From positions 1 to 46,916 of IMG/VR virus record IMGVR_UViG_3300011116_000473: 46,916 nt of DNA, one strand, 5' to 3'. This document shows, piece after piece, positions 23,820 through 42,755 of this stretch. The first letter of the stretch is position 1. The number at the start of each line of letters is the position of its first letter. The notes below the pieces were generated by a model. It worked only from the letters and a program-made list of their open reading frames with translations. It was not told the origin of the DNA and made no database searches. A program made the translations under genes and the position numbers. This stretch comes from a virus.

Positions 23820-24480
23820 AAAGGCTAATAATATTTGCCCCAAGCGTGTAGTCATCTTGATAAACCCCTGTCGGAACTAGGTCATACGACTCCCTAACCG
23901 CTGAAGCCATTATGGCTGGAGATGAGTTTATGCCTAGAAAGTTCCTAGCCCTTTGAATAAGGAAAGGCATATAGGCAACAGAGCTACAGCTTATCGCCCT
24001 CAGTCCGTTAATATCTAGTTCATTCGGACATAGCACTACTAGGTTATCCTTTCCGTACATTTCGATGGCCTTTTTGACTACGATAAGGGGATCATGCTTC
24101 ACCATTTGGCTTATCCCAAAAGGAGCAACAAGATCATAAACCCCAAGGTCTGGAGCAAACCATATATTGTCCAAAACTATCCTTTCATCAACTGCCTCTG
24201 GGAACTGATCTCCGAATACAAACTCCTCCCATCTTCTACCGCTTGCTCTGTACTCATCGTAAAGCAAAGGCCAGACCTCTCTGTTGAATACATAGTCAAA
24301 CTTTTCGTAGGCATCGTTAATTTTCTTATGCTTTACATAGGTTGTGCATTTTAAAATGTCTGCATACTCATCCTTGCACTCAAAAAATACTTCGTCTCCC
24401 CTGTCTGCAAATAACTTCGCCAACGGCAACATCCTTAATATGTCGCCCAACCTCTGATGATATTGTATTAAAACTTTCAC
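23818..24480 (-). CDS. glycosyltransferase-like protein (GT-B, GT9-like)
   Basis: A 220-residue protein. The N-terminus (QYHQRLGDILRMLPLAKLFADRG) matches the acceptor-side opening of heptosyltransferase-like GT9 enzymes, and the C-terminal LGINSSPAIMASAV resembles their donor-binding loop. It is shorter than most GT9 enzymes (about 300-350), so it may be reduced. The start is GTG overlapping the stop of the exostosin/radical-SAM gene. It belongs to the five-gene sugar cassette. Confidence 0.6.
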   Translation of the reverse strand: MKVLIQYHQRLGDILRMLPLAKLFADRGDEVFFECKDEYADILKCTTYVKHKKINDAYEKFDYVFNREVWPLLYDEYRASGRRWEEFVFGDQFPEAVDERIVLDNIWFAPDLGVYDLVAPFGISQMVKHDPLIVVKKAIEMYGKDNLVVLCPNELDINGLRAISCSSVAYMPFLIQRARNFLGINSSPAIMASAVRESYDLVPTGVYQDDYTLGANIISL

Positions 24481-26330
24481 CCAGCAAAGTATTCTGTGAC
24501 TTTATGCTCCAAAGCTTTCTCAGTTTCGAGCAACTGGATCTTTCTGCCCTTTGTGTCCCTCGATTTTATTGCCAAGTCTGCGTTGCTTTTTGTGTAGGTA
24601 TCCAACTGCTCATTGTCCATAGACCCTCGTAGTCGTGCTGGTACTCCGCATCCTGTACAGAAATGTTTAATCTGACCCTCAAATTCTCGGATTGGCTTTT
24701 TCCACCAGCCCTCAACTACTGGATGTCCGTTGTCTGTTCCCCTCGCCAGATCAAAAGAAGCTGCAACCTCACAAAAATATGCCCTTAGATTCCCCTTGTT
24801 CTGAACGATGGATGCAGACCACTCCCTGTTTACATCACATCCAGCGATCTTCTCCCACATTTCCTTTTCTGGATACAAGTCTTTTACTGCCGTCAAAAGT
24901 GGTGCGTGGTGGGAATTTCCCACATAGTATCCTCCGTTGAATCCACGCTGATTGACCATTACATTGTGAAGGTCTTTTAGTTTTTCATTTGCCCTTTCCT
25001 CATTGTGAGGGTTAAGGTTCAAGCCACCGAATGTCTTTTCAATTACCTCACGATGCTTGAAATAGTTGTTCGTCCATAGCCCTCTTTGATGCTGATTCGG
25101 AATCTCCTCACGGAATACCTCACATAGCTTTTCAAACTGCGTATGCACACAGGGATTGCCTCCAATCATAGCGATGATTCCATTAAAATCTTTGAGACTA
25201 CGAAGTGCTAATCGGAAGTTCTCTGGTGTCATCTCCCACAGCGAGTCTTGATTTTTAAGAAGGCGAGTGCAGTTCGAGCAAGCTAAGTCGCACTTGTTGG
25301 TCACATCCACGCAGATAATGTGCATATGTTCTGGGCTTCTCATCTTGCCAATGGCAATATCAGCATAAGATTGGCTCTCTAGGTTCTCAGCTACTTTTTC
25401 CATAATAAATTCCCTTTCAAATATGTGCCTATCTTTTGCTATGTTTTTCTGCTTTTCCTTGATCTCACCAATAGATAGCCGTTGAATAAAGTCAGTCAAG
25501 CCAAACAAGTGTCGTTCCTCTGTGACATAGCAATACTTGCTCCAATCAATCTTGTCTCCAAATGGAAGCACATATTCATCCGATACCAGTATCGGTATCG
25601 AGCCATTCAGTAAAGCCTCCACAAATCGAAACGACCATCTGCCGTATCCAGCAGGGCAAAGGGTAAATACCGACCTAGCCATAAGATCGTGGTAGGTGAT
25701 TTCCCCAAGCCTCTGTTTAATATCTAATGGAGATCCAATCACAACCTTATCGCTTTCAAATCTTTTCTTAAACTGAAGCAGTCTCCCGCCACGGATATGT
25801 TCTGGAGGTAGGTGAAGCTGAGTCATGCTCCCCATAAATGAAAGTAGAATATCTCTATTAAGTTCCTTTTGCTTGATCGGCTCGGATTGGTACGGAAGAA
25901 TGGCTATGTCTTGCCTGTGAAGATTAGCCAATGACTCAAGCACAATTAAGATAAAGCGGTCATCCATCCAGCCATACTTTTTATCGTAAGCCCGAAGTGG
26001 ATTGGCTTCGTGAGTCATCTCATACTTTGACTCTGCCCTTTGCCCTACATCTCCAGTTGAAACAAGGATATGCCTTCCCTTGTGAAGATAGGCACAATGA
26101 TTGACCAGAAGCTCTGGATCGACATTTGCAAATTGCAGTCCAGCCGTGAAAATAGGGACAAAGAAAAAGTCAGCTTCATCTGGATTTTTTGTCTCGTACT
26201 TTTTAAAGAAATTGTAGAAATCTACCAAATACTGAAGATGCGGGTATAGCCTGTTTAGCTCTGCGTAGAACAGATTCCTCTGCCATATCTCATTTGATAG
26301 TATAAGATCGTGGTAGGTAAAGATTTTCAT
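24477..26330 (-). CDS. exostosin-like glycosyltransferase fused to radical SAM
   Basis: A 617-residue two-domain protein. Residues about 1-320 match the exostosin/GT47 family, with RWSFRFVEALLNGSIPILVS and DEYVLPFGDKIDWSKYCYVT. Residues about 335-590 are a radical SAM domain: C347-x3-C351-x2-C354 for the iron-sulphur cluster, a following GGNPCVH segment, and extra C-terminal cysteines (HFCTGCGVP) that could hold an auxiliary cluster as in SPASM-type enzymes. The fusion suggests sugar transfer linked to a radical modification of the same substrate. Both ends overlap neighbours (ATGA, GTGA). I do not know this fusion from other phages. Confidence 0.75.
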   Translation of the reverse strand: MKIFTYHDLILSNEIWQRNLFYAELNRLYPHLQYLVDFYNFFKKYETKNPDEADFFFVPIFTAGLQFANVDPELLVNHCAYLHKGRHILVSTGDVGQRAESKYEMTHEANPLRAYDKKYGWMDDRFILIVLESLANLHRQDIAILPYQSEPIKQKELNRDILLSFMGSMTQLHLPPEHIRGGRLLQFKKRFESDKVVIGSPLDIKQRLGEITYHDLMARSVFTLCPAGYGRWSFRFVEALLNGSIPILVSDEYVLPFGDKIDWSKYCYVTEERHLFGLTDFIQRLSIGEIKEKQKNIAKDRHIFEREFIMEKVAENLESQSYADIAIGKMRSPEHMHIICVDVTNKCDLACSNCTRLLKNQDSLWEMTPENFRLALRSLKDFNGIIAMIGGNPCVHTQFEKLCEVFREEIPNQHQRGLWTNNYFKHREVIEKTFGGLNLNPHNEERANEKLKDLHNVMVNQRGFNGGYYVGNSHHAPLLTAVKDLYPEKEMWEKIAGCDVNREWSASIVQNKGNLRAYFCEVAASFDLARGTDNGHPVVEGWWKKPIREFEGQIKHFCTGCGVPARLRGSMDNEQLDTYTKSNADLAIKSRDTKGRKIQLLETEKALEHKVTEYFAG

Positions 26331-26875
26331 TTAATCTTTAGCCAGCAATCTCGTATAATTTCTGGAGATTCAACAAGCTCATCCACGGCAAGGATTACTC
26401 CGCTATGTCTTAAGATATAATCATGTCCAGCAAGTATCCCTCCCTTTTTAACCTTTGGCATCCAAGCAAGAATGTCTGCCTTTACAGATTCATAGCTATG
26501 GTCTGCGTCTATAAAAACTGCATCCAGAGATTCTTCTGCATACATTTTTGAGGCTGAAACGCTGTCAGTCCTAATGGGATTTATGAGATTTATAACTGGC
26601 CGAAGATTGTCGATAAATGTTCCGAAAAGAGAGTTTTCCCTTATGTCGCCTATATCCTTATGCTCCTGCGATCCATGCCAAGTATCTACAACATCTATCC
26701 GTAGCTTTTTATGCTGTGCCTCAACAGCAAGGTAAGATGTGCTTGCTCCTTTCCACGCCCCAACCTCTACGATATGCCCTCCTTCTGGAACAGATTCAAC
26801 GATTCTCTTGTAAATATTTTGATAGTTAAACCACTTTTCCTCAAATTTCTCGTCCATCCAGTAGTGTTGAATCAC
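26327..26875 (-). CDS. class I SAM-dependent methyltransferase
   Basis: A 182-residue enzyme with the class I methyltransferase motifs: motif I IVEVGAWKGAST, motif II after RIDVVDTW, and a DAVFIDADHSYESVKAD segment typical of Methyltransf_24/sugar O-methyltransferase-like families. It probably methylates a sugar or small acceptor made by the neighbouring transferases. The start is GTG overlapping the upstream stop. Confidence 0.8.
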   Translation of the reverse strand: MIQHYWMDEKFEEKWFNYQNIYKRIVESVPEGGHIVEVGAWKGASTSYLAVEAQHKKLRIDVVDTWHGSQEHKDIGDIRENSLFGTFIDNLRPVINLINPIRTDSVSASKMYAEESLDAVFIDADHSYESVKADILAWMPKVKKGGILAGHDYILRHSGVILAVDELVESPEIIRDCWLKIK

Positions 26876-28551
26876 TTGTTTCGTTGCTCAAATATCTTTT
26901 TGCCAAGATCGTAGTTTGATTGTGCATTATGACGGATAAAAACCTCGTCCTGCTCTCCCTTGGTAAAGAATGGGTTTTGATGCTTAAATACCAAGTCTTT
27001 TGCTTGCACTTGAATATCTTTTGTTCTTGCCGTGAATTCGTTGTCCGAGAAAATGCCAGAGCATTGTGCGTATTCTGGTGCAAATAGATTGCCTCCTAGA
27101 TAATCTAGTGTCGGCTTTGTGCAGATTGCGATGCACAGGAGATCGTCTGTTCGGTATCCGTCAGAAACAGCTAGTACGGCTGGCTTGGTTGGATCTGGTA
27201 ATCTTTTGCGAATCTCATCATCCCATCCAAAAGGAGGAATAAAGTCATCGGATACTTGAATGATGTACTTACCCTTTGCTTGTTTTGCACAGGCATTCCA
27301 CGCCCCTACGCACTTTCCGTTTGGCGTAATGATTCGTTCATTTCCAGCGTACTCGTCTGCGTCTGCATCGACTCCAAGCAAATGCTGTATTTTGTTTGGC
27401 TGTTTAGCCATTGAGAGCCAAGCCCATCTTGCTCCATAAAATTGTTTCGGCCTAGCCGTTGCGTGACATAGGGTAATATCAACTTCTCCGAAGTTTTTGA
27501 CTTTATCCTGCTGAAGAAAATCTACAAGGTCATTTTGCCCTAATGCTCTTGCACAACGCTCGTAAAGGTCTGGGGCTTCCCACTTGTAAATAGCTTCTTT
27601 CGTAGTCCAATATGCAATATTGGGGATTGGAATAGAACAGGCTGAACGAGCCAGAGCTAACGCTTCGTTATAGTGCTTTCGTGCGTAGTAGTCCTCTGCG
27701 ATGTAAAAGAGTGCCTCAATCCGATGCGGTGCTAGTGCGTATGCTCGAAATAGCTCTTCTCTTTTTAAAACTGGATCGGCCAAACATCTTCCTACAATGG
27801 TATGACATTGAACCCGAAGAACTGGATCAAGCGTATCGTCAGCTAACGCACACTTTGCGTGTCTAATTGCCTCGTCATACTTTCCAGACAAGAAATACTC
27901 CTCTGCTTTGTAGAATCTAAATAGGTAGCTTTCGTGAATCACACTATCAAGAATCTTATGATTTCTGGATACGCTAGAACCTTTGTGGTCAAATGGTGCG
28001 TGAAGGAACAAGCCAGCGTGTGTTCCCATAGCCTTTGCTCCAGCATCAGATATTGGCTTAATCTGCTCGTGAACTGGATACCTCCAGCGGAACTTTTTAT
28101 TCTTAGTCATCCTCTCTCGAACAGGACAAAGACCAGCCAAAGGAACGGAGTATCCAGCAAAAATACAGTCGTGATCTGTCACCCTTTCGGCAATAGCAAA
28201 AAAAGCTTTTTCTGCCCCATCGACCAAAATATCATCTGCGTCAAACCACATACACCATTCCTTTGTGCAAGCATCGAGTGCCGTATTTCTAGCGTCTGCA
28301 AAGCTATCTAAATGCTCCCAATCCTTTGCATTTTCTTTGTTATTATAAACTACCACCTTTGCCCCGAACTTCTTTGCTACTTCCTCAAGAATCGGAAGCC
28401 CTTCTTCGGTGTGCTTCCCCATCGCAGAGCAAAGCACAATCTCATCTGGCTTGAGTGCCTTGAAAGACTCCAAGGCTCTTGTGATATACTTGGATGCACA
28501 CTCCCTAGAAACGATAGCATAAAGGGATAGAGTAAATGGGAATCTGTCCAT
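26872..28551 (-). CDS. double glycosyltransferase with TPR-like middle
   Basis: A 559-residue protein. Residues 1-190 are a GT2-type domain with WFD104-A-D106-D107 at the metal site. The middle (about 215-340) is helical with tetratricopeptide-like spacing (YLFRFYKAEEYFLSGKYDEA). Residues about 350-540 form a second GT-A-like domain with YIIQVSDDFIPPFGW. It could add two sugars in sequence, as in bacterial SPBc2-type TPR glycosyltransferases. It starts the sugar cassette and has its own promoter ending six bases before the ATG. Confidence 0.75.
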   Translation of the reverse strand: MDRFPFTLSLYAIVSRECASKYITRALESFKALKPDEIVLCSAMGKHTEEGLPILEEVAKKFGAKVVVYNNKENAKDWEHLDSFADARNTALDACTKEWCMWFDADDILVDGAEKAFFAIAERVTDHDCIFAGYSVPLAGLCPVRERMTKNKKFRWRYPVHEQIKPISDAGAKAMGTHAGLFLHAPFDHKGSSVSRNHKILDSVIHESYLFRFYKAEEYFLSGKYDEAIRHAKCALADDTLDPVLRVQCHTIVGRCLADPVLKREELFRAYALAPHRIEALFYIAEDYYARKHYNEALALARSACSIPIPNIAYWTTKEAIYKWEAPDLYERCARALGQNDLVDFLQQDKVKNFGEVDITLCHATARPKQFYGARWAWLSMAKQPNKIQHLLGVDADADEYAGNERIITPNGKCVGAWNACAKQAKGKYIIQVSDDFIPPFGWDDEIRKRLPDPTKPAVLAVSDGYRTDDLLCIAICTKPTLDYLGGNLFAPEYAQCSGIFSDNEFTARTKDIQVQAKDLVFKHQNPFFTKGEQDEVFIRHNAQSNYDLGKKIFEQRNK

Positions 28552-29846: not shown

Positions 29847-30809
29847 TTACGAAGCAGAGTAAGAAGTCGTGATCAACTGCATTGCAGTAGAGTCGATGAC
29901 CTTGACCACACGATTCGAACGCACCCGAAGGATGTTCGAACGGCGACCTTCATCACGATAGCTCTCAGCAACGAAGGGAGCAGAAGCATCTTCGCTCCAA
30001 ACAATCGTGCGACCCGCACCACCAGAGGCGAAATCGCCACCAGCAGTCTGTCCAACGGCCACATAAGTCGTGGGGAGGATGAACGAACCGCTGAAGGCTT
30101 GACCTTTAGCTGCGCTGTTCTTAGCCGCTTTTCCAACTAATACTTTTTCAACGCCAGCCGCGGCGGCGATCTCTTGCTCAGACAACAGACGGCGAGAGTC
30201 AGTCGCAACAACACCGAAGAACTGATTCTGCGTCAGCGGTGAACGCCGAACGAGATCAAATACTTCTTGGTTCATGATCACCGTGTTGGCGATCACACCC
30301 TGCTTCAGCAAACGCTGTTTGGCTGCTGCCACATCGGCCACAAAGTTAATCGTGGCGAGATTGGTCACAGTGTAGTTGACCAAAGCGGCGGTCGCAGTGA
30401 AGGTTCCAGCATCAAACAAGATGGAAGCACATTCGGCTTCATGACCGATCTGGATGTTGCGGAGGAGGATCTTCGCAGTCTCGGTTTCTAGGCCGAAAAA
30501 GCGGGACACATCTGACGCAAGTGCATCTGGTACAACCTCTTCCAATCCGTATTCCACGCATGTGAAATTATCGTTATCGAACGCCCTCGAAGAGCGAGGA
30601 TACGAGCTGCCGGGAGCAACCTTAGAAGCATCGCTGTTCAAGAGTTCAGCGTTGCCCAAGTTAAGCTTGAGGTACTGTCCAGCACGAACTGGGCTGTTAT
30701 AGATCGGGAATACATCGGTTCCGATGAATCCTTGATCCGCTTGGCTGGCCTGAATGACAGCCGTTGTGATGTCGCCACGAAGGGTGGCGTTTGAGGTGAG
30801 ATAAGACAT
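29847..30809 (-). CDS. major capsid protein
   Basis: A 320-residue protein of the lambda gpE-like HK97-fold group. Features include an N-terminal segment without a cleaved scaffold, FDNDNFTCVEYGLEEVVPDA, a long spine-type helix (NFVADVAAAKQRLLKQGV) and TVIMNQEVFDLVRRSPLTQN. It follows the decoration gene, as E follows D in lambda, and ends at a strong terminator, as expected for a highly expressed gene. The start has AAAGGA eleven bases upstream. Confidence 0.88.
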   Translation of the reverse strand: MSYLTSNATLRGDITTAVIQASQADQGFIGTDVFPIYNSPVRAGQYLKLNLGNAELLNSDASKVAPGSSYPRSSRAFDNDNFTCVEYGLEEVVPDALASDVSRFFGLETETAKILLRNIQIGHEAECASILFDAGTFTATAALVNYTVTNLATINFVADVAAAKQRLLKQGVIANTVIMNQEVFDLVRRSPLTQNQFFGVVATDSRRLLSEQEIAAAAGVEKVLVGKAAKNSAAKGQAFSGSFILPTTYVAVGQTAGGDFASGGAGRTIVWSEDASAPFVAESYRDEGRRSNILRVRSNRVVKVIDSTAMQLITTSYSAS

Positions 30810-31199: not shown

Positions 31200-31673
31200 T
31201 TAGAAGCTTTTGTTGAAGCCACCAGCGGAAAGCTCTTTCCGATATTGTTCTGTGTATTTTCCAACACAAAGGCGAAGAGCTTCACCCTTGGAGATGTTGT
31301 TTGCTTTCATCTCAAAATTTACGAGTTCCGAAAATGTTTCGGGCTTTTTCTCATTAACAGCAGGAGCCGAATGAGCAATAGGAGCCGACACCATCTTGGA
31401 GAGTTCGGTGCGAATTTCATTTAGCACACCAGAAAGTTCGATTTTGCCAGCTTCAACAGCAGACATTGCGACCTTCTCCTCTTTATCGGTTTTTTCGGTA
31501 ACAACTGGAGAAGTTGCTTCCATTTCAGCTTTAGGCTCCTCGGTAGGGGCAGGATTCATTTTAGCTTCCAAAGCCGAAAGCCGAGTAGCGAATTCTGCCA
31601 TCTGCTTACCGAGATCTTCCATGTTATAAGAAGGGGTTTCCTTCTTGTCGGTAGTGTCAGGCGTAGTTTCCAT
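31200..31673 (-). CDS. nested scaffold protein, internal start
   Basis: In-frame ATG at 31673 (residue 344 of the full protein) is preceded by AAGG and by TTGACA 17 bases upstream, the same signals as at whole-gene starts. The product would be 157 residues: a coiled-coil (LGKQMAEFATRLSALEAKM), a disordered acidic middle and a basic helical C-terminus, the typical build of a scaffold. It would be to the protease gene what lambda Nu3 is to C. Confidence 0.6.
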   Translation of the reverse strand: METTPDTTDKKETPSYNMEDLGKQMAEFATRLSALEAKMNPAPTEEPKAEMEATSPVVTEKTDKEEKVAMSAVEAGKIELSGVLNEIRTELSKMVSAPIAHSAPAVNEKKPETFSELVNFEMKANNISKGEALRLCVGKYTEQYRKELSAGGFNKSF

Positions 31674-32138
31674 ATTACTCAAATTAACCTTGTCAACTAC
31701 TATACGACCAGAATCCGCTGAAAATAAACCTGTAGGGTTCGAAGCGGGGTGCTGTACTAGGTCTGCGGAGTACAATTCAGAACACCTCGCAAGGTCAAAA
31801 TCTGACCCATTTAGCTCTGATTCTCCACTGAACGAAATCGAAATCCCAAACGCATCTGGGATCTCGGAGGCAAGATCCATGTAATATTTTGCACGATCTT
31901 GGCGACTCTTGAGAAAAGTCAAATCTGCGAGAAGTTTGTTCCCGCTTTCGTCAATTCTGAAGTTCGTGAGTTTGCCGATAATATCAGCAATCCCTGCTCC
32001 GTGATTTTCATTTACCTTCACCCCGCCCTTGAATTGCTCTGCACAATTCTTCACTTGCTCAAGCGTGGTTGCGTCGATTTCAAGCCGATGGCCTTTGGCC
32101 ATGCCAGTAGTTAATACCGAAACTCCTTTTAAAGTCAT
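31200..32138 (-). CDS. nested prohead protease-scaffold, internal start
   Basis: In-frame ATG at 32138 (residue 189) has GAGGAGGG seven bases upstream, the best Shine-Dalgarno in this gene. A product from here begins MTLKGVSVLTTG at the edge of the protease domain and would lack the acidic N-terminal region. It may be the main protease form; no direct proof. Confidence 0.45.
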   Translation of the reverse strand: MTLKGVSVLTTGMAKGHRLEIDATTLEQVKNCAEQFKGGVKVNENHGAGIADIIGKLTNFRIDESGNKLLADLTFLKSRQDRAKYYMDLASEIPDAFGISISFSGESELNGSDFDLARCSELYSADLVQHPASNPTGLFSADSGRIVVDKVNLSNMETTPDTTDKKETPSYNMEDLGKQMAEFATRLSALEAKMNPAPTEEPKAEMEATSPVVTEKTDKEEKVAMSAVEAGKIELSGVLNEIRTELSKMVSAPIAHSAPAVNEKKPETFSELVNFEMKANNISKGEALRLCVGKYTEQYRKELSAGGFNKSF

Positions 32139-32702
32139 ATTGTCGCCCTCCTCATAATTGTATTTCTTTTTGCCCTGTCCTTGAATAACTGCGGTAGGAA
32201 TAGTTCCCGCTGGGGTACTTCCACCAGTGGGGTATGCCATTTCCTCCTCGTCTTCTTTGTCTTCTGCTTCGTCTTCAGCTTCTTCCTCGTCTTCGTCCTC
32301 GTCCTCTTTCTGTGGGATGGCGGGTTCAATGGGAGTAGAATCGCTTCCAGATTCGCCGTCAGACTGGCTCTCGTTCTCTAGGTTTTCCTCGTTATTATCG
32401 AAGATCTCGGATGCTATTTCCGCACGATCAGAAGCATCTGGGAATAGCCCGATCATGTTCTCATCGGCCACAAAGCGACCCATGAAATCCGTGAAAGTCT
32501 CGCCGTCTTCTGGGGTTAGTAAACTGTTATTAGAGGCGAAATTCTTTCTTTTCTGCTTCTTTTTTGCCTCTCTAAAGATACTTGCTCCTACTGCGTACCG
32601 TTGTTTATTATCCGTATAATCCTTAACAGCAGTGGAGTTACCCATGAATTTTGACATGAAATCAGCAAGAGACTGACCTTTTCTTGGTGTAGGTAGGGGC
32701 AT
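31200..32702 (-). CDS. prohead protease-scaffold polyprotein
   Basis: A 500-residue protein in four parts. Residues 1-42 and 63-101 are two copies of the FM-x-[KR]-F type motif found at the start of phage protease/scaffold proteins (SLADFMSKFM and TFTDFMGRFV). Residues 110-155 are very acidic. Residues 189-328 are a U35-like prohead protease with H234 (VNENHGAG) and a GISISFS serine near 288-290. Residues 344-500 are the scaffold. It should cut the scaffold, and perhaps other proteins packaged inside the prohead, during maturation. The order matches lambda C/Nu3 before D and E. Confidence 0.8.
   Translation of the reverse strand: MPLPTPRKGQSLADFMSKFMGNSTAVKDYTDNKQRYAVGASIFREAKKKQKRKNFASNNSLLTPEDGETFTDFMGRFVADENMIGLFPDASDRAEIASEIFDNNEENLENESQSDGESGSDSTPIEPAIPQKEDEDEDEEEAEDEAEDKEDEEEMAYPTGGSTPAGTIPTAVIQGQGKKKYNYEEGDNMTLKGVSVLTTGMAKGHRLEIDATTLEQVKNCAEQFKGGVKVNENHGAGIADIIGKLTNFRIDESGNKLLADLTFLKSRQDRAKYYMDLASEIPDAFGISISFSGESELNGSDFDLARCSELYSADLVQHPASNPTGLFSADSGRIVVDKVNLSNMETTPDTTDKKETPSYNMEDLGKQMAEFATRLSALEAKMNPAPTEEPKAEMEATSPVVTEKTDKEEKVAMSAVEAGKIELSGVLNEIRTELSKMVSAPIAHSAPAVNEKKPETFSELVNFEMKANNISKGEALRLCVGKYTEQYRKELSAGGFNKSF
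31691..31696 (-). promoter_or_regulatory. internal start-associated TTGACA
   Basis: Inside the protease-scaffold gene, 17 bases before the internal ATG at 31673; preceded by CGTATAGTAG. It is the only TTGACA in this set within a coding region and marks the nested scaffold start. Confidence 0.45.
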
Positions 32703-34807: not shown

Positions 34808-35626
34808 ATGATCAAAAACATCCAAGACATCAAACGGCTGAAACCCTCTGAAATTCGCAACCTTTCAAAAGCGGAACTGGAGGTGATTGTTCCTTTGCTT
34901 TCTGCCGAATACAAGAGGGTAAGGAATGAGTGTGGTGCAAATTATTTTTTGGTTAGCGATCTATTCACCTCGGCATCTAACCGTTTGGAAAAATACGCAA
35001 AGGAAGAGCGCAAGGCTCTCCGTGAGGCCAAACAGAACTCGAAAGAGATTGAGCGCAAGCGGATCGAGGGTCTTGCATCCCATCTCCGAAAGCTTCTTAT
35101 TCCTGTTGAAAATGCACTTGCTGAGTCGATTGTTGAAAGCGATAACGATAGGCTCAAACGCCAAGACAAATTCTTTAAATCGCTTCCCAAGCCCTATGTG
35201 ATCTATTACAAATCATGGCATTCGACTGATAATAGCGATGATAAGATTACATACACAGAATTCCGTCAGCAGTATGGCCGTTTTTGGGAAACGAAACGAC
35301 TGGATTATAGCCAGTCCAACCCTGAGAAGGTAAGCAAGAAATTAGGACTCGCCAAAAAGATTGAGAAGGATGCAAAGGATTATGCCAAGACTGCATGTGA
35401 TAATTTTGCCTTCAAGATCGTTCAAAAAACAGAGCAAGAGATCGCAAGCCGTAACTCTTTTGAGAAAATTGTCTCCAGTTCCTACAAGGGCAATACTAAT
35501 CCTTGGGATGGCGGTCAAGTCATTATCAAAACAGACAAGGGCGAATATGTTTGGAATACCAAGGTGATTCTGAACTTCTCGAAGTACGGACTCCCCTTCA
35601 ACCAGTGGCCAACTCGGTTGGCCTAG
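34808..35626 (+). CDS. hypothetical protein, 272 aa
   Basis: A plus-strand gene with its own promoter. The first 130 residues are a charged coiled-coil-like region (YAKEERKALREAKQNSKEIE); the C-terminal part has mixed structure with aromatic residues (YVWNTKVILNFSKYGLPFNQ). No enzyme motif or known family is seen. It is separated from the head genes by strand and promoter and looks like an added, independently expressed gene. Its end meets the minus-strand genes 35623-35745. Confidence 0.7.
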   Translation: MIKNIQDIKRLKPSEIRNLSKAELEVIVPLLSAEYKRVRNECGANYFLVSDLFTSASNRLEKYAKEERKALREAKQNSKEIERKRIEGLASHLRKLLIPVENALAESIVESDNDRLKRQDKFFKSLPKPYVIYYKSWHSTDNSDDKITYTEFRQQYGRFWETKRLDYSQSNPEKVSKKLGLAKKIEKDAKDYAKTACDNFAFKIVQKTEQEIASRNSFEKIVSSSYKGNTNPWDGGQVIIKTDKGEYVWNTKVILNFSKYGLPFNQWPTRLA

Positions 35627-35745
35627 TCCTTCTTGGATTCTTTGATCTTCTTGATCTCTTTGAGTGCTTCGATCATGTTGTCCAGAGATTTGTCATCACG
35701 GCTGGACAATTCATCTGCCAGTGGATCAGTCGAAGAGGTTGCCAT
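35623..35745 (-). CDS. small acidic-basic helical protein, 40 aa
   Basis: A short gene starting at ATG 35745 with AAAGG nine bases upstream, overlapping the zeta-like gene by 20 bases. The peptide begins MATSSTDPLADELSSRDDKS and ends with a lysine-rich helix (KEIKKIKESKKD). It directly follows the zeta-like kinase. Size and position would suit an antitoxin or small chaperone, but real epsilon antitoxins are larger, so this is only a possibility. Confidence 0.55.
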   Translation of the reverse strand: MATSSTDPLADELSSRDDKSLDNMIEALKEIKKIKESKKD

Positions 35746-36838
35746 GGGTTGCCTTTACTGGAGCATTACCTTTGCTCCGATCTGCGTTTCCGTCGAGCGA
35801 GTAGCCGATGTCGGCTATCCCTTCAGAAGTTAATTTGCTCCAAGTCTGCCTAGCCTTTTCGGCAGATCCTTTTACATAGTCATACGGAACATAGCGTCCG
35901 TTTGGCTTGTTAAATCGTTTAGAGGCTCGGTTTAAAGCGACCTTATCATCCACATCCACATGAACTATCCCAATTTTATATCCAACTGATTTTAGCGTTT
36001 TCGCCATCTCTGCAACCTTATTAGAGTTTTTTCCAGTAATGTCGATCAAAAGATTGTGATTTTCCATAACTGCCCTTGGGAATACGACCTTCTCAGATAT
36101 AAGAGCCGACTCCTCATGGAACGCTCCAGCATTCCACCCCTCGAATCCTTTTGACTTTCCCTTGACGGAATCTGGATCAATCTTGGTTGTCTCTTTTCCG
36201 TTTAGAATCTTTTCTGCGAATGGTCTTCCAGTAGTAGTTTTTCCGCTGGCTGGAGATCCCATAAGAATTACTGCGATGGGATTATCCGATTTTGCCCTTG
36301 GGTTTAGCTCGCTTGCAATAACCGCATCCTTCCATGCCTTATGTTCTGGAGTGGGGCTTTCAAATGTTTCAACGATGTCTTTCTTCTGGATGTACCGTTT
36401 TGGATCTCTCAGCGACCAGTGCGTTACTGGGGCATCTTCAGATCCTTCTGCTTGGGCTACTTCCTTCTGTAGCTTTGCCATTTTTTCCATGGCTATTCTG
36501 GCTTTTGGCTCTGCCTTTAGCCTTTCAACCATTGCATCAACTTCATCGCTTGGAGTGCTTGTTTCGGATTCTTTTTTAGCCTTTGAGGATTTAGACTTGC
36601 CCTTGCTTGGACCGCTTTTGCCCCCTCCGCCCTTTCCGCCAGACCATCTTCCTTTCTCATCCCTTGGCTGATCTGGATTGTAAAACTCGATTTTCTCTCC
36701 GTTGTATTGGAAAACGAATGATTGGACGGCAACCGCTTGAAGCTCTTCCTTTTTTGGGTGGATAATTTCTATATCGTTATCCCAATTCATTCGATTTTCT
36801 AGAGTATTCTTGTCCCACTCGGCAATAGTCTCTTTCAT
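35726..36838 (-). CDS. zeta-toxin-like kinase with capsid-linker motif
   Basis: A 370-residue protein. Residues 38-70 carry the linker repeat (YNGEKIEFYNPDQ, then RDEKGRW) shared with the preceding giant protein, followed by a Gly/Lys/Ser-rich spacer. Residues about 185-350 are a zeta-toxin-type P-loop kinase: Walker A GSPASGKT (194-201), KIDPDSVK (219-226), HEESALI, and HNLLIDITGKN. Zeta toxins phosphorylate UDP-N-acetylglucosamine and block wall synthesis. It overlaps the stop of the giant gene (ATGA) and probably works with it, perhaps injected or packaged. Confidence 0.8.
   Translation of the reverse strand: MKETIAEWDKNTLENRMNWDNDIEIIHPKKEELQAVAVQSFVFQYNGEKIEFYNPDQPRDEKGRWSGGKGGGGKSGPSKGKSKSSKAKKESETSTPSDEVDAMVERLKAEPKARIAMEKMAKLQKEVAQAEGSEDAPVTHWSLRDPKRYIQKKDIVETFESPTPEHKAWKDAVIASELNPRAKSDNPIAVILMGSPASGKTTTGRPFAEKILNGKETTKIDPDSVKGKSKGFEGWNAGAFHEESALISEKVVFPRAVMENHNLLIDITGKNSNKVAEMAKTLKSVGYKIGIVHVDVDDKVALNRASKRFNKPNGRYVPYDYVKGSAEKARQTWSKLTSEGIADIGYSLDGNADRSKGNAPVKATHGNLFD
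36635..36682 (-). repeat. linker repeat, copy 5
   Basis: Encodes Y53-N-P-D-Q-P-R-D-E-K-G-R-W then SGGKGGGG in the kinase gene. The preceding FVFQYNGEKIEF matches that before copy 4 (FVFRYNGDIIEF), so the repeat unit is about 35 residues here. Confidence 0.85.
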
Positions 36839-39800
36839 AATAGTTCTACCCTAGCAGAAACCAGATTTCCTACAACCTCTGGTTTCTTGGTTCCAGTCAA
36901 GTTGCTTTGATAAAGTGGTACTCTTTCGATTTCAGTAACTCGGAATCGTGATTTTCTAGGAAGAATAACCTCCTGCTCTTTTGACATACTTCCAGCGTTC
37001 ATAAACCTTGGAACTGCCATTCCTTTGCCTTTTGCTTTGCTTATGGTAAGGAAAAGTCTTGATTTTGTGTCTCCCACTAATGGATTAACCAAAAACCCAT
37101 CGCCATTCTTTGCCATATTTTTGAAAAGGTCACTATCAAAAAACGATGTATCCTTATAAATATTCGATTTCCCAAAAGAATTCTTTACTTCTTTTGCATC
37201 CAACTTGCCAAATTTTCCTTTTGAATTATAGGTGGTTATCTTTTTAAGGGGGGTTCCCTCTCCGTATTCATCTACTCCTATTAGATTGGTATATAACTGA
37301 CTAATACTACTAAATTTAGCACCAACATACGCATCCCTAGATGTAGAAACAAATCCCTTGTCTATAAACTCAGAACCAACCTGTAGGGTAGAGGCAAGCT
37401 CTTTGGTTTGTGATCGGGTCTTATTTTTTGAGTGCTTTGCTTGGTCTTCGGTCATTCCACGATAAATAGTGGATTGCTCATTATTGGGAAAAATCTTTAT
37501 GGCTTTGTCCAGCAATTCTTTTTTATCACCGATGGTAAAGTCTGGAGAATTTGGATCTCTTTCTTTTGCTTCACGACTTTCGGCATTCATAAGTATTGAA
37601 CCGCTACCAGTATAATCAGCTACAGCATTTATCATCTCGTCTGACTTATTTTGAAGCTCAACCGATGTTTCTGCTCCAAGTCCATCTTTAGCCACTGCTT
37701 CACTCCATTGTTTTGCTTCTCTTTGATTTTCTGGTCTATCCATTTCTAGGTTTGGATTGTCTAATATCTTGGAGTAAACCCATTCGGCTTCCTGCTTGAT
37801 TGATGTATAGCCTTCTCCTACTCCGCTTTTTCCCTCTCCTCTGCCTCTGGCCGAGTCGCCCCCCGAAGTCCATTTCCCACTCTCATCTCTATCTTGTAGT
37901 GGATCGTAGAACTCAATTATATCTCCGTTGTATCTAAAAACAAATGATTCGATAGCCACCGCTTCGTCGAACTGGAATCCCTCGGAACCATCATCTGGAA
38001 GCTGAATCACGATGGGTACATAAATCAACTTACTTCCGTCTGCCAATTCTTTTGTGGCCACAGGGGATGGTTTGGGTCCGTTCTCATAGACATATTTTCT
38101 AATCGAATCGACCTCGAAGATTTGCATTTTCTTGATAGCACTTGGGGAAACTGCACCGTCCTTGGTGAAGATTTTTGACACAGCGGCCAAGCCAGTTTTG
38201 CCCATCTTTTGAGCCTTGGTTGTAGGGATGTTGTCGGCAACGCTTTTGAATCCGTCTGCCAATACGCTGATGATTCCGATCAATTGCTTCCCGCCGATCT
38301 TGGGTGCATTACCAGAACGCAATACGCCGTACTCCATGGCTAGATCCAAACTGTCCGTACTGTACACCTTGCCCCCACCCCAAACGCCACTTTTAGAGGG
38401 TTTTAAGCCGTCTTTTCGTATGTCTTTAAGCACATCTGCTGAAGTTCCGTGATAAAGGGTAGTAGCCTCCCCAGTCTTCTTGCTGGCCTCCGCTGGGTTT
38501 TCCTGCGCCCACCTTGGTGTAGGTGTGGCTCCTTGAGCTATTCCACCCCCGCCAGTCCACTTACCAGACTCATCCCTTTGCTGGTTGGGATCGTAGAACT
38601 CTATCGCTTGATAGCTCCTGTAATAATTACGCCCTCCCCCTCGTTGTAGTCCGAGGTGAATACGATTCGGGAAAGATCGCTCATAGTTGTCGATGATTGA
38701 TTTGTAGGCTTTTTTTCCTGCAATCCTTGTGTCTCCACCGATGAACTCTCCGACTCCTCTGACTGCTTCTGATTTTCCATTTATTGCTCCTAGAAATTTG
38801 GCAACATTAGCCGTCAACTGCGATCCTTGGTCTAGGATTGTTACGCTAGTCTTGGCTCTGTCGCCCACCATTGTTCTAAAACTAATTCCGTTATCCGACA
38901 ATATTTTTCTGACTTCATCCATTGGTCTGTCTGCTGAGATTTTATGCAGAATATCGGGACCGTCCTTCTTTTTCTGGAAGGCTACAACTGCCTTTTGGTT
39001 TAGGCTCGCCCCCAGCTTGGATGCCGTGTATTTAAGTTGATCAAAGTCTTTAACCCCCTTCACATCGATTTTAATCGAATTCTCTGCGCCATCTTCCCAG
39101 TCTCCGATCCCAGACTCGACTTCCCCATCCATGTCTTGCTTCTTGATGGCATCTCTTGCAATGCTTACGGCTCTGGCATGTTCTGGCGAATCGGTCATTT
39201 TCTTCGCCTCTTCGTAATTCATGTTCTCTTTGATGTTTGGAGACACAAGAATTTCACCCCCTTTGCCACCTCCAGAAGTCCATTTCCCAGATTCATCTCT
39301 TTCTTGTGATGGATCGTAGGCGAAAGTAGCTACCTCGAATATCTTCTTTCCTTCGATTTCTTCACGAATCGCAACCGCAATTGCATCAGCAATATAGTCT
39401 GCCACATCCTCCATCTCTGGATCTTTTTCGAGTGTTACAACATTACCTTGAGCCGACATGGGGCGAACCCCAATCCCTTTTCGGACTATGTTTGATACTT
39501 GCCTACCGCCTTCAACCTTTCTGTATTCAGCTATTGCGCCCTTCACAAATCCTCTTAATGCAGACTGGCCAGCAACAATAGCTCCGACCTGTGGGTTAAA
39601 CAAAGATCCAACAAGAATTTTGTACCTGTCTCCGTGTGCGCTTTTTACTGCCTCAATGGCTCCCTGCGATCCGATGCTAATTGTCCTAGCAACACCACTT
39701 AAAAACTGCTGTCCGTTATCGCTGGCAAGCCAATTTTTGATCTGAGAGGCTTTAGAAGCACCATATTGCCCAGCCACCTTGGCTCCATTGGCAATGGCTG

Positions 39801-40752
39801 TAATGCCCTTTACAGCCCCTTTTACGCTCGATTTTGCCATATCTAGGGCTGGATTTTGTCTTTGAACCTTCTGGATAAGCTTGCCTTCAAGCGACCCGCC
39901 TTGGCTAGTCCATTTGCCAGACTCGTCTCTTTGTTGGCTTGGATCGTATAAAAGGGTTGGGGAATCCGATAATTCAATAACCTTTCCGTTGTATGAAAAA
40001 GCTTTCTTTACTGATGGCGTGTTGGGAACGAATTGCTCCCCCTTCTTACTGCCCTCTGCCTTTGTTCGGTTTGCCCCCGCCTTCTGTGCTGGAGTAAGCT
40101 TATCCCATACTCGTTTCGGTAGATACCTTTTGTCCTTACCCTTGCGTAGCGATGGCTTGCCATCCGAGGTAGTCCACTTCTCTTTCCCCCATTTCTTTAG
40201 GCTTTCCTGTGACTTGCTTCTGCCACCCCTGTAACCTCCCCCAGCTTTTTCGTAAGCCTGTACCAGTAGTTGCGCTTTTCTTGCAGACCATTGCCCAGCC
40301 TTGCCTCCGCTTGTACCACGAAGAATCCTGTTTTTAATCCTCTCCCGAAGTTTTGGTTTTGTATATTTTTGAAACTCCAATGTGGCCTTGTCGGTAATGG
40401 GACCCCCAACGATCCACGCACTGCATGTTCTCATTGAAGCGCATTTAAAGTCAAAGATTTCGCAGTAACCAAGATCGCCAGCTTGCTCAACTTCCTGTGC
40501 GTCTGTTCCAATACCTTTGCTGATGCAATCCATGAGTCTCTTTGTCTTGTTGAATCCAGCGCAGTTCCCGCAACGCATTGTCTTAGCTTCTTCGACAGAT
40601 CCCCCGAAGGTCTTTGCTTTGTTAGCCCAGTACTCCTCATTCGGCTCCTTGGGATTGGCGGGACCGTATTGCGCTACATCAATAGCCTTTTGACGATTGG
40701 CTAGATTGGTTTTGATGTCCTGTGTTGGGAGTGGACAATTACTCTCAGCCAT
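36835..40752 (-). CDS. 1305-aa multidomain packaged effector, two ART domains
   Basis: Follows the portal gene (TAATG overlap). Residues 58-115 hold six cysteines (C61, C64, C76, C97, C104, C110), a likely zinc domain. Residues 130-245 match DUF5872 (GGKAGQWSARKAQLLVQAYE). Four linker repeats (269, 479, 720, 949) separate further modules: an Ala/Gly-rich hydrophobic helical region (300-430), an unknown domain (508-712), an ART-like domain with LYH768-GT and VY797-ST, and a C-terminal R-S-E ART with YR1098-GM, S1136-T-S and E1259-x-E1261. ADP-ribosylation of host proteins is the likely task. It probably enters the head and is injected. Confidence 0.85.
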   Translation of the reverse strand: MAESNCPLPTQDIKTNLANRQKAIDVAQYGPANPKEPNEEYWANKAKTFGGSVEEAKTMRCGNCAGFNKTKRLMDCISKGIGTDAQEVEQAGDLGYCEIFDFKCASMRTCSAWIVGGPITDKATLEFQKYTKPKLRERIKNRILRGTSGGKAGQWSARKAQLLVQAYEKAGGGYRGGRSKSQESLKKWGKEKWTTSDGKPSLRKGKDKRYLPKRVWDKLTPAQKAGANRTKAEGSKKGEQFVPNTPSVKKAFSYNGKVIELSDSPTLLYDPSQQRDESGKWTSQGGSLEGKLIQKVQRQNPALDMAKSSVKGAVKGITAIANGAKVAGQYGASKASQIKNWLASDNGQQFLSGVARTISIGSQGAIEAVKSAHGDRYKILVGSLFNPQVGAIVAGQSALRGFVKGAIAEYRKVEGGRQVSNIVRKGIGVRPMSAQGNVVTLEKDPEMEDVADYIADAIAVAIREEIEGKKIFEVATFAYDPSQERDESGKWTSGGGKGGEILVSPNIKENMNYEEAKKMTDSPEHARAVSIARDAIKKQDMDGEVESGIGDWEDGAENSIKIDVKGVKDFDQLKYTASKLGASLNQKAVVAFQKKKDGPDILHKISADRPMDEVRKILSDNGISFRTMVGDRAKTSVTILDQGSQLTANVAKFLGAINGKSEAVRGVGEFIGGDTRIAGKKAYKSIIDNYERSFPNRIHLGLQRGGGRNYYRSYQAIEFYDPNQQRDESGKWTGGGGIAQGATPTPRWAQENPAEASKKTGEATTLYHGTSADVLKDIRKDGLKPSKSGVWGGGKVYSTDSLDLAMEYGVLRSGNAPKIGGKQLIGIISVLADGFKSVADNIPTTKAQKMGKTGLAAVSKIFTKDGAVSPSAIKKMQIFEVDSIRKYVYENGPKPSPVATKELADGSKLIYVPIVIQLPDDGSEGFQFDEAVAIESFVFRYNGDIIEFYDPLQDRDESGKWTSGGDSARGRGEGKSGVGEGYTSIKQEAEWVYSKILDNPNLEMDRPENQREAKQWSEAVAKDGLGAETSVELQNKSDEMINAVADYTGSGSILMNAESREAKERDPNSPDFTIGDKKELLDKAIKIFPNNEQSTIYRGMTEDQAKHSKNKTRSQTKELASTLQVGSEFIDKGFVSTSRDAYVGAKFSSISQLYTNLIGVDEYGEGTPLKKITTYNSKGKFGKLDAKEVKNSFGKSNIYKDTSFFDSDLFKNMAKNGDGFLVNPLVGDTKSRLFLTISKAKGKGMAVPRFMNAGSMSKEQEVILPRKSRFRVTEIERVPLYQSNLTGTKKPEVVGNLVSARVELL
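37858..37908 (-). repeat. linker repeat, copy 4
   Basis: Encodes residues 949-965, YDPLQDRDESGKWTSGG, preceded by FVFRYNGDIIEF. It stands between the H-Y type ART-like domain and the C-terminal R-S-E ART. Confidence 0.9.
38542..38595 (-). repeat. linker repeat, copy 3
   Basis: Encodes residues 720-737, YDPNQQRDESGKWTGGGG, preceded by SYQAIEF. It stands before the H-Y type ART-like domain. Confidence 0.9.
39265..39318 (-). repeat. linker repeat, copy 2
   Basis: Encodes residues 479-496, YDPSQERDESGKWTSGGG, preceded by FEVATFA. It stands between the hydrophobic helical region and the unknown domain 508-712. Confidence 0.9.
39895..39948 (-). repeat. linker repeat, copy 1
   Basis: Encodes residues 269-286, YDPSQQRDESGKWTSQGG, preceded by FSYNGKVIEL. 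It ends the Cys-rich/DUF5872 part and opens the hydrophobic region. Confidence 0.9.
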
Positions 40753-42755
40753 TATTCGCTCCGTGCTTTGTCCAATTGACCAACAATCTTTTTAGCCCTT
40801 GCAAGTCCTGCATCACCGCCCCACCCCATGTATGCTTGCCATCCTTTTCCTTGCTCGCTCCATGTCGAACCCTTCTTGTCCACCTCATGCCGTGAAAGGA
40901 AGCTGTAGATTCTGCGCCAAGTGCGGGGAGAAAGCTTCTTGCGTCCGATAATATCCCTAGCCCTTGCAATTCCTACTTGAGTCATTCCACGCTGGCTGGC
41001 TGGCTTTTCAGCCCTTACCCGCAAGGCAGACTTGGCCGACTCGACCATCCCATCACTAGGGTAAAGATCAATATCAGCGATGTTCTGCATCTCGATTGCG
41101 TCCAGTACCATCTCTGCATCTTGTGTCGTAAATTCTTTTGAGGTACTTGTTCGCCTCGCCCTAGAAGGCACATAATCGTCCTCTAGGTGCTGTTGCTGAA
41201 TCTTGGCTATCTCTTCTTTGGGCTGTTGGTCTGGAACCTGTGGCTGTTCTTCTGGTGCGGGTGCTTGCGCCTGTGGGAACGCTGGCATGGATGGCTTGAA
41301 AGCCTCGGAAATCGATTCGATTGGAACATCCATTTCTTTAGACAGATCCTTGGCATACTTAACCTCGTAGGCTCGTTGTCTCATTGCCTCTTCATAGTCC
41401 TCGCCTTTGGCTCCGTACACCTCTGCGGCCGTCCGAAGACCCGCCTTGAACTCGCTGATATTTGCTTGTGAATCGCGGCCTACATCTATGGTGCTGTCCG
41501 AAGGGTAAATCCACTTGCCCTTGGTAAAGTTGCTATTGGGCGGGATCTTGCCCCTAGAAATACCGTCTGCGATTACCAAGTTCTTGATCTTATCAAAGAA
41601 ACGATCCTCTAGGATGCTCTGCCAACGCTTGAATGTGCGTGAGGCCAGAGCCATCTCCAGCCGAACTGTGGGACCCCCAAGCTTCGATAGATCGTAGCAG
41701 AATCCGAATGGAAGATTGAAGGCCAAGGCAATCATGTGAACGATCAAATCCACATAGCCTTGGAACGCTGAAGAAGGTCGATTGCTTTCGAACATCTTCA
41801 TCTCGGAACCAGTGGGGATGTAGTTAATTTGCCCCTTCTGCATATTCTCAAGATTCATCGTGTTGCCATAAGAATCTGTCTCGGCTTGGTTGAAGTACGA
41901 TGCGGGATCGTCGGAAGATCCTGTCGCATTCGAAATTGTCATGATGCGAAAAGCCGCGTTCTTAACTGCGAGGTTTTCGGCATCCATGGTTTCCGCAAGA
42001 TCCTTGCAATAGTTAATAACAGAGGCCAGATGGCTACGACCACGAACCTCATCCAGTCGAAGTGGATCGTAAATAAACAGGAAGGACGATGCGGGTATTT
42101 CCTGTGCATCTGTGTAGAAGTTGCCCTGCGTCCTGCGATAAACTTTATACGATTCCGTGCGCCCGAACTTGTCGAACTTCACTCCCCCAATGTATTCTTG
42201 GCTGGAAGTAGGATTGTCGAACATGCCTCCAATTCGGTCAGCCTCTACTGCTTGGATGCGAATGTCGCTATTGGGATCTACTTGATCCCCGATGGAGTTT
42301 TCCCTTGTGATAACAAAGCCAACATCGCCGTCACGAAGTACGGAACGAAGAGCTAGATGAGACAAGGCGTGAAAATTATTCCTACCAAAGAAGTCGCACT
42401 TCCTGCACCAAGCCGACCAGTAATCCTCGTAAGACTGATCCACTTTCCTGTCTCCAGTGCGGGACATGTATCGGAAATTTCCAAGAGCATACTGCGAAAA
42501 TTTCAGAAGAATTGATCTGATAATAGGATTGTTGTCTTCTAGGTCACGACCAGCTTTGATAAGCTCGATGCGCTCAAAGGTTGAGTTGTATCCTTCTCCA
42601 CCAGATAGTGGCCTTGATGGGAGTCTGTCCCTAAGTGGATATGCCCCAGCGAATCTGGTTAATTCTGTAAGCTTGCACTTGTCGGCAAGCCTCTTGACCC
42701 CAAACTTGGGGTTGATTGCAGTAATCGCTTTTTCTAGGAAGTTTAGTTGAGGCAT
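40752..42755 (-). CDS. portal protein with extra C-terminal domain
   Basis: A 667-residue lambda gpB-type portal: YEDYWSAWCRKCDFFGRNNF, LRDGDVGFVITREN, RIQAVEADRIGG, and LAFNLPFGFCYDLSKLGGPT are characteristic. The family is usually about 500-550 residues. The extra C-terminus (about 545-667) contains GIARARDIIGRKKLSPRTWR and YSFLSRHEVDKK, then WGGDAGLARAK, a module I recall from other aquatic phage head proteins. The dodecamer forms the DNA gate. The leader before the ATG is AT-rich without a good Shine-Dalgarno. Confidence 0.88.
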   Translation of the reverse strand: MPQLNFLEKAITAINPKFGVKRLADKCKLTELTRFAGAYPLRDRLPSRPLSGGEGYNSTFERIELIKAGRDLEDNNPIIRSILLKFSQYALGNFRYMSRTGDRKVDQSYEDYWSAWCRKCDFFGRNNFHALSHLALRSVLRDGDVGFVITRENSIGDQVDPNSDIRIQAVEADRIGGMFDNPTSSQEYIGGVKFDKFGRTESYKVYRRTQGNFYTDAQEIPASSFLFIYDPLRLDEVRGRSHLASVINYCKDLAETMDAENLAVKNAAFRIMTISNATGSSDDPASYFNQAETDSYGNTMNLENMQKGQINYIPTGSEMKMFESNRPSSAFQGYVDLIVHMIALAFNLPFGFCYDLSKLGGPTVRLEMALASRTFKRWQSILEDRFFDKIKNLVIADGISRGKIPPNSNFTKGKWIYPSDSTIDVGRDSQANISEFKAGLRTAAEVYGAKGEDYEEAMRQRAYEVKYAKDLSKEMDVPIESISEAFKPSMPAFPQAQAPAPEEQPQVPDQQPKEEIAKIQQQHLEDDYVPSRARRTSTSKEFTTQDAEMVLDAIEMQNIADIDLYPSDGMVESAKSALRVRAEKPASQRGMTQVGIARARDIIGRKKLSPRTWRRIYSFLSRHEVDKKGSTWSEQGKGWQAYMGWGGDAGLARAKKIVGQLDKARSE

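Follow-up and report, generated by a model that had tools for sequence, protein, structure and literature searches.

Exchangeable effector modules joined by a short linker behind the portal gene of a virus: a probable head-carried cargo

What is the role of a long open reading frame (ORF) that directly follows a phage portal gene and is built of enzyme modules set apart by one recurring peptide? The question is raised by a freshwater-type phage, virus record IMG/VR IMGVR_UViG_3300011116_000473, the whole 46,916 bases of which were analysed (the window). On the minus strand lie, in order, the genes for the terminase large subunit, a head-tail adaptor, the portal, a 1305-residue ORF, a zeta-family kinase ORF, small genes, a 500-residue protease/scaffold candidate, a small decoration-like gene and the major capsid protein (MCP), with tail genes beyond. 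The start codon of the 1305-residue ORF overlaps the stop codon of the portal gene, beginning on its last base, and the kinase ORF starts inside the final codons of the 1305-residue ORF. It is probable, at roughly 0.72, that the locus specifies a chain of effectors carried in the virion, which would be packed into the head and enter the host cell together with the DNA.

Linker peptides and the modules between them

The recurring peptide, linker A, follows the pattern [YF][DN]PxQxRDxxG[KR]W and occurs four times in the 1305-residue ORF and once in the kinase ORF, and no other ORF of the window contains it, the relaxed form of the pattern included. An earlier sequence-only reading of this DNA had placed the same linker at all module borders; the five copies were confirmed, but the border of the DUF5872-like domain with the Cys-rich N-terminus has none. 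In the AlphaFold2 (AF2) model the linker is predicted to be disordered, as is the sequence around it. Among the five window copies the proportion of synonymous differences (pS) is 0.69 against 0.17 for nonsynonymous differences (pN), most synonymous positions differing with the peptide kept, and flanking stretches of equal length in the family have a pN of 0.55-0.67, a contrast that is partly built in given that the peptide was picked by its own pattern. Residues just past the linker, outside the pattern, are also conserved (T in 76/128 and G in 94/128). A border peptide, YNG-x-x-IE(F/L), often precedes the linker, and in this family a YN(G/S)-type element often stands before linker A and before a second peptide, linker B (CGTGxGGFxxGNxC), which is unrelated to A. 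In the loci L212-L214 (L numbers denote the loci compared with the window) homologous modules are separated by CGTGxGGFKxGNTC and linker A occurs once or is absent, L009 and L012 carry both linkers, and each of the two is followed by glycine-rich runs. The presence of two unrelated peptides at the same borders argues for a role at the peptide level besides recombination.

The C-terminal module of the chain is solidly assigned, by family and residues, as an R-S-E ADP-ribosyltransferase (ART). PF03496 is matched at 42.7 bits against a cut-off of 23.4, the catalytic residues R1098, S1136-T-S and E1259-x-E1261 are in place, as the sequence-only reading had claimed for a complete R-S-E ART, the R, S and E are conserved in 4 divergent family members, and the profile of the family matches the Vis structure 4xzj. 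The ORFs, coordinates and residue numbers of that reading, including H768 and Y797, were likewise located as given. These last two residues belong to segment 3, of which residues ~745-930 probably form a divergent ART of the H-Y type. The PARP family of Pfam is matched at 0.02 in the window and 7.9e-5 in the relative L009, a profile of 14 rows ranks PARP10, PARP3 and KptA first (E 0.002-0.007), its matches below E 0.1 are mostly PARPs, KptA or another H-Y ART, and H768 and Y797 are invariant in the 14 aligned rows; the KptA model of NCBIfam matches segment 3 of L214 at 2.4e-5. Comparison with the ART-PolyVal profile aligned only the region of the H-G-T motif, 47 columns. Since the Foldseek matches of a two-domain model were dominated by segment 2, segment 3 was modelled separately; folded alone it reached a predicted local distance difference test (pLDDT) score of 81 in AF2, and its Foldseek matches had E >0.1, about 20 of the top 50 being ARTs. 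The H-Y ART-like domain of the earlier reading is probable.

The kinase ORF, called zeta-toxin-like before, matches PF06414 at 67.9 bits against a cut-off of 22.3 (1.1e-18) and has a P-loop that starts at residue 194. Its matches to the AvrRxo1/XopAJ zeta model (3e-5) and to the PezT model (0.027) are weak. AvrRxo1 phosphorylates nicotinamide adenine dinucleotide (NAD), and it can be speculated that the kinase and the two ART-type modules could all act on NAD.

At the other end of the chain, the N-terminus, zinc-type in the earlier reading, instead resembles a 'high potential iron-sulfur protein' (HiPIP), the annotation carried by its nearest homologues in phages, among them a DSL-LC01 protein to which it is 50% identical over residues 6-122. 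The DUF5872-like domain is matched by two PHROG families and, at 20.4 bits, lies below the curated Pfam cut-off of 27.5; the domain is not at this place in L003-L008 and L010 and is a separate gene in L011-L013. Segment 1 has no Pfam match. Segment 2 can be described with fair confidence, from its model, as an alpha/beta domain with ferredoxin-like features; Foldseek aligns it with the phage SAM lyase 6znb (prob 1.00, TMt 0.50) and also with ACT domains, and a sequence search of the PDB was empty. Neither segment 2 nor the ART module had a tblastn relative in the phage collection. A copy of segment 2, 35% identical, lies in a 2049-residue multidomain protein (L216 2414-8560) that has no linkers and, by eye, a zincin-like motif.

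Exchange of modules at the linkers

The relatives, 13 close IMG/VR loci (L001-L013) plus further ones, were compared module by module, and in this comparison the modules are cassettes inserted and swapped at linkers between related phages. The ART cassette of the window (1169 bp), shared with L009 and absent from L001, sits in a region whose remainder is 66-70% identical to L009 and 84-89% identical to L001. It starts at the first base of linker 4 (37908) and ends just before the YNG-IEF element that precedes the kinase (36740), and a direct repeat of 98 nt lies on either side of it (36641-36738 and 37867-37964). Because the cassette brings with it the ART, the ART stop codon and the first part of the small gene that follows, the window has the kinase in an ORF of its own, whereas in nine relatives (L001-L008, L010) segment 3 and the kinase behind it are encoded together.

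Other slots vary in a similar manner. Segment 1 exists in two alternative versions, ~31% identical, which take each other's place in phages that are otherwise closely alike. In L009 segment 3 comes first, then segment 2 and the kinase, and a second ORF holds segment 1 and the R-S-E ART. L006 gains an ART-PolyVal module at the N-terminus (3.5e-13) and a second one whose match is weak, a GNAT module is added in L010 and L214, L003 and L002 have a JAB-like N-terminal piece (by eye), and L011-L013 carry other R-S-E ARTs. The chain of L005 is broken over two reading frames ahead of segment 3, possibly by a frameshift or a sequencing error. The extra or replaced modules are mostly bounded by linkers, the HiPIP-like and DUF5872-like modules being the exceptions, and small linker-A ORFs, tagged single modules, occur upstream of the portal (L012 3690-4190, L013 3138-3758, L234 739-1674). 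The search for the same linker between other domain sets that the sequence-only reading had proposed found shuffled modules, GNAT, ART-PolyVal and alternative modules. Counted over pairs of loci that are not independent, 50/103 ends of blocks with >=80% identity lie within 20 bp of a linker, and of all homology-block ends 102/359 lie near one against 59 +/- 7 expected.

Proposed head packaging and the competing explanations

In the close relatives that show both genes, the chain lies directly behind the portal, or only another linker-tagged ORF stands between. The linkers were sought more widely by a degenerate DNA pattern, the 22-residue linker being judged too short for BLAST; as a tblastn query it led to one phage, Nocardia phage P3.1, and its 'capsid maturation protease'. 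Linkers A and B are common in viral contigs, with at least 119 and at least 120 stretches in the two collection scans. Among the matches listed, to which the remaining counts of this paragraph also refer, linker B is mostly internal in the wide set, as is A, and 49 pieces precede linker A in unrelated phages, several of which match portals or MuF. When checked singly, a portal or MuF domain stands before the linker in 12 proteins of unrelated phages, a portal in L085, L089 (weak), L092, L108, L112, L113, L115 and L124 and MuF in L105, L108, L110, L129 and L144; L108 has the order portal, Acb1, MuF, linker, a weakly KptA-like module, a second linker-like peptide and a RelA/SpoT-like region (by eye). 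Within two ORFs of the linker genes the portal, head-morphogenesis, terminase and head-maturation-protease families dominate, one portal family reaching 13/125, and five or more ORFs away, in the same contigs, no family exceeds 2/116. The modules after the linkers include ARTs, NUDIX, TopoIB, ParB and a PI3/4-kinase-type family.

The best experimental evidence that a zeta and ART combination is loaded into the head comes, by analogy, from another phage. Mass spectrometry of purified virions of the cultured cyanophage P-SS2 identified its protein gp030, by 96.5 peptides on average, under the name major capsid protein in the proteome paper (PMC2784084). By its domains, MuF, zeta kinase and R-S-E ART, gp030 (L362 3783-8282) is a virion-borne effector carrier, and by this analogy the head packaging of the window chain, which the sequence-only reading had suggested from its position after the portal, is a well-supported proposal. 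Several points nevertheless weigh against the packaging and effector interpretation. The 1305-residue polypeptide has no MuF or portal domain, and no PF04233 match was found in the window proteins scanned. gp030 has no linker A, which makes the analogy one of module content and not of layout, and the virion detection comes from P-SS2 and not from the window phage or its close relatives. Linker A is also present in bacterial genome contigs, and the probable H-Y ART has no significant structural match in Foldseek.

The sequences themselves show the anatomy of the locus, the conserved ART residues, the exchange of modules at linkers and the fusion of the same linker to portal or MuF domains in other phages; head loading of this product, its ejection, and the enzymatic activity and targets of its modules we infer. 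Several enzyme modules would be expressed from the late (head) operon, immediately after the portal, each after a short flexible linker and often with the border peptide ahead, and the chain would be loaded into the head and then delivered to the host cell with the DNA. The linkers would let the modules fuse, split into tagged ORFs or recombine without disturbing their neighbours. Once delivered, the R-S-E ART, the probable H-Y ART and the zeta-family kinase may modify host proteins, RNA or nucleotides, which would serve to overcome defence or to take over metabolism.

It is possible that the chain is expressed late and not packaged, and that it acts in the infected cell in host shut-off or superinfection exclusion, merely sharing the head operon. 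The chain has no structural domain, the zeta ORF is separate in the window and many phage effectors work intracellularly; this is nonetheless quite unlikely given the fusion of the linker to portal or MuF in the unrelated phages above and the abundance of the MuF-zeta-ART protein in P-SS2 virions. Even less probable, to the point of being remote, is an interbacterial polymorphic toxin in the sense of the MuF toxins, a phage-delivered killing of non-lysogens whose cognate immunity protein would possibly be the plus-strand gene at 34808-35626. The late operon, the toxin-family domains and the swappable modules would suit such a toxin, as would the plus-strand gene that accompanies zeta in nine relatives, but that gene is absent beside zeta in L003 and L009, the chain carries several modules instead of one C-terminal toxin, and no lysogeny gene was noticed in the window, where no systematic search for one was made. 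Counter-defence or host takeover fits the putative effector chain better than the multi-toxin label of the earlier reading and is favoured over a competition toxin because of the multiple modules of the chain, the GNAT in relatives, the NUDIX and Acb1 in unrelated phages and the lack of a constant immunity gene, no obligate one standing beside the modules in the loci compared. The literature likewise has head-packaged ARTs acting as infection begins (PMC9503650).

The role of the linker itself has been read in two further ways. That the linkers are processing sites of a prohead protease, at which the chain, as a polyprotein, would be cleaved inside the head to give individual effectors, is doubtful: the linker is predicted to be disordered, the same modules are also found in tagged ORFs of their own, a gene for a candidate protease/scaffold is located downstream and a peptide, AY..G.T....T.TAVIQGQ, is common to the MCP N-terminus, the protease candidate and the DUF5872 modules of L012 and L214, yet neither the capsid protein nor the protease candidate, the usual substrates, has a copy of the linker, no known cleavage consensus fits and the protease was assigned by eye. 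That the linker is a mere recombination seam or repeat scar, with no role as a peptide, would explain why homology blocks end at linkers more than expected and why the cassette insertion starts at one; it is unlikely, somewhat more so than processing, given that the synonymous positions have diverged with the peptide kept, that two unrelated linkers occupy the same borders and that the same peptide stands at the N-terminus of single-module ORFs.

Neighbouring genes, known systems and significance

The features of the locus are collected in Table 1. In the portal protein, phrog_2859 matches residues 544-663, and the C-terminal extension (40752-41126, around RHEVDKK...GWGGDAG) resembles by eye part of the DSL-LC01 'capsid maturation protease' (RHEIDKK...LWGGDTA; L242 4408-6219), whose gene adjoins that of the HiPIP-like protein. 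The 272-residue plus-strand gene, which is not beside zeta in L003 and L009, has no match among Pfam and other family models and is a possible antitoxin or regulator; it is the only candidate for an epsilon/PezA-type partner, inconstant beside the kinase. A protease identity of ORF 31200-32702 was not borne out, no match being found in Pfam, PHROGs or NCBIfam. The peptide AY..G.T....T.TAVIQGQ lies in the window at 30744-30809 (MCP N-terminus) and 32172-32240 (protease candidate), and its copies include MAYITSGATLRGDVTTAVIQGQ (MCP of L009), MAYPTGGSTPAGTIPTAVIQGQG (protease candidate), AYASGGGGAPAGTIPTAVIEGQ (DUF5872 ORF of L012) and AYPVGGATMPATIKSAVIQGQG (L214); this peptide of capsid, protease and cargo may be a shared head-assembly or cleavage signal. 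Between the capsid and tail genes, on the minus strand, lie a radical-SAM-like gene (weak, 0.0018) and a glycosyltransferase-like gene (1.4e-17), at 24477-26330 and 26872-28551. A nucleotide search of the phage collection gave no near relative of the window. Weak hints on the host point in two directions: contigs of a close L009 relative (L389, L367; RFYV01000025.1, RFYV01000066.1) are in a metagenome-assembled genome labelled Betaproteobacteria, and a homologous HiPIP-like protein is found in an Actinomycetia phage.

Table 1. Features of the effector locus and its surroundings, with positions in the window
Feature	Position	Strand	Residues	Basis or remark
Portal protein, lambda family, C-terminal extension	40752..42755	-		PF05136 E 2.2e-47; phrog_21 portal E 9.6e-55
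1305-residue linker-jointed putative effector chain	36835..40752	-		ORF; relatives L001-L013
Cys-rich (HiPIP-like) N-terminal domain	40393..40737	-	6-120	DSL-LC01 homologue; conserved in close relatives
DUF5872-like domain	40090..40356	-	133-221	PF19197 E 8e-4; phrog_14910, phrog_17747 E <4e-16
Linker 1, YDPSQQRDESGKW	39910..39948	-	269-281	Motif
Segment 1, alanine/glycine-rich helical region	39319..39909	-		Layout of relatives
Linker 2, YDPSQERDESGKW	39280..39318	-	479-491	Motif
Segment 2, alpha/beta domain, predicted repeated ferredoxin-like (beta-alpha-beta) fold	38596..39279	-		AF2 pLDDT mostly 70-90
Linker 3, YDPNQQRDESGKW	38557..38595	-	720-732	Motif; predicted disordered, pLDDT <50
Segment 3, probable H-Y type ART-fold domain (H768, Y797), then border peptide SFVFRYNGDIIEF	37909..38556	-		Profiles, AF2
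Linker 4, YDPLQDRDESGKW	37870..37908	-	949-961	Motif; left edge of inserted ART cassette
R-S-E mono-ART module	36838..37869	-		PF03496 5.1e-11; Vis 4xzj 1.5e-8
ART cassette, 1169 bp	36740..37908	-		85% identical to L009, absent from L001
370-residue tagged zeta-family kinase ORF	35726..36838	-		PF06414 1.1e-18; GSPASGKT P-loop
Linker 5, YNPDQPRDEKGRW, ahead of kinase	36644..36682	-	53-65 of zeta ORF	Motif
272-residue gene, opposite strand to head operon	34808..35626	+		Adjoins zeta in 9 relatives
500-residue candidate prohead protease/scaffold	31200..32702	-		NENHG...ISISFS motifs, by eye only
Major capsid protein	29847..30809	-		phrog_1005 E 3.1e-27

Parts of this arrangement are already known, namely effectors with several domains that are packaged, fusions of ARTs with MuF and a head protein that combines zeta and ART. 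The last of these, P-SS2 gp030 (PSS2_gp030, 1499 residues), deposited as a head morphogenesis or minor head protein, is likewise encoded in the head module downstream of the portal and has a zeta kinase and an R-S-E ART in one polypeptide, its zeta matching the window by blastp at 7e-12 and its ART the window family by hhalign at E 4e-6, but it has its own MuF domain and the order MuF-zeta-ART, neither linker A nor B was found in it and no other window modules were matched. The polyvalent proteins of phages and conjugative elements (Iyer et al. 2017, PMC5512222), which are predicted to be packaged and injected, similarly hold disparate enzymatic domains, ARTs and GNATs among them, in one long protein by head genes. 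As in that class, which is defined by at least two disparate domains per polypeptide and a virion morphogenesis neighbourhood, the window chain has the R-S-E ART, the probable H-Y ART and the HiPIP-like and DUF5872-like domains, with the portal directly upstream and the protease candidate and MCP downstream; however, the main text of that paper does not contain the word linker and stresses processing by zincin peptidases, none of which was found here. Toxins associated with MuF (Jamet et al. 2017, PMC5576092) and fusions of MuF or portal to ARTs (PMC9503650), for both of which delivery with the DNA has been proposed, are also effectors on head proteins near the portal with frequent ARTs, whereas the window chain has no MuF domain and several effectors. 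Alt of phage T4, an ART of the R-S-E clade that is packaged in the head and injected (reviewed in PMC5512222), shares this clade with the window chain but is not linker-jointed, and the Vis-type R-S-E mono-ARTs and zeta/PezT kinases are matched by window modules that sit, in contrast, in a phage head operon. The combination, held to be undescribed in the sequence-only reading, is preceded, as regards zeta and an R-S-E ART in one head protein, by P-SS2, and in the open-access text searched, in which alignments inside figures are invisible, neither the linker peptides nor a linker-delimited exchangeable layout, an exact cassette insertion or the spread of linkers behind portal and MuF was found described.

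The cassette exchange shows how a set of such effectors can be renewed module by module with the chain intact. It is tentatively suggested, at somewhat less than even odds, that linkers A and B are interchangeable head-cargo joints across many phages, which would mark the attachment of an effector to a portal, to MuF or to another effector, allow the exchange of one cassette at a time and be usable as a signature for virion-delivered effectors in uncharacterised phages. The peptide shared by capsid, protease and cargo is a testable lead on the entry of cargo into the head. Phages with these linkers put ARTs, NUDIX, GNAT and Acb1, a protein against the cyclic-oligonucleotide-based anti-phage signalling system (CBASS), in such chains, and, should the linkers prove to be general cargo joints, searching for a simple motif would reveal head-carried, first-delivered effectors that are hard to spot by homology.

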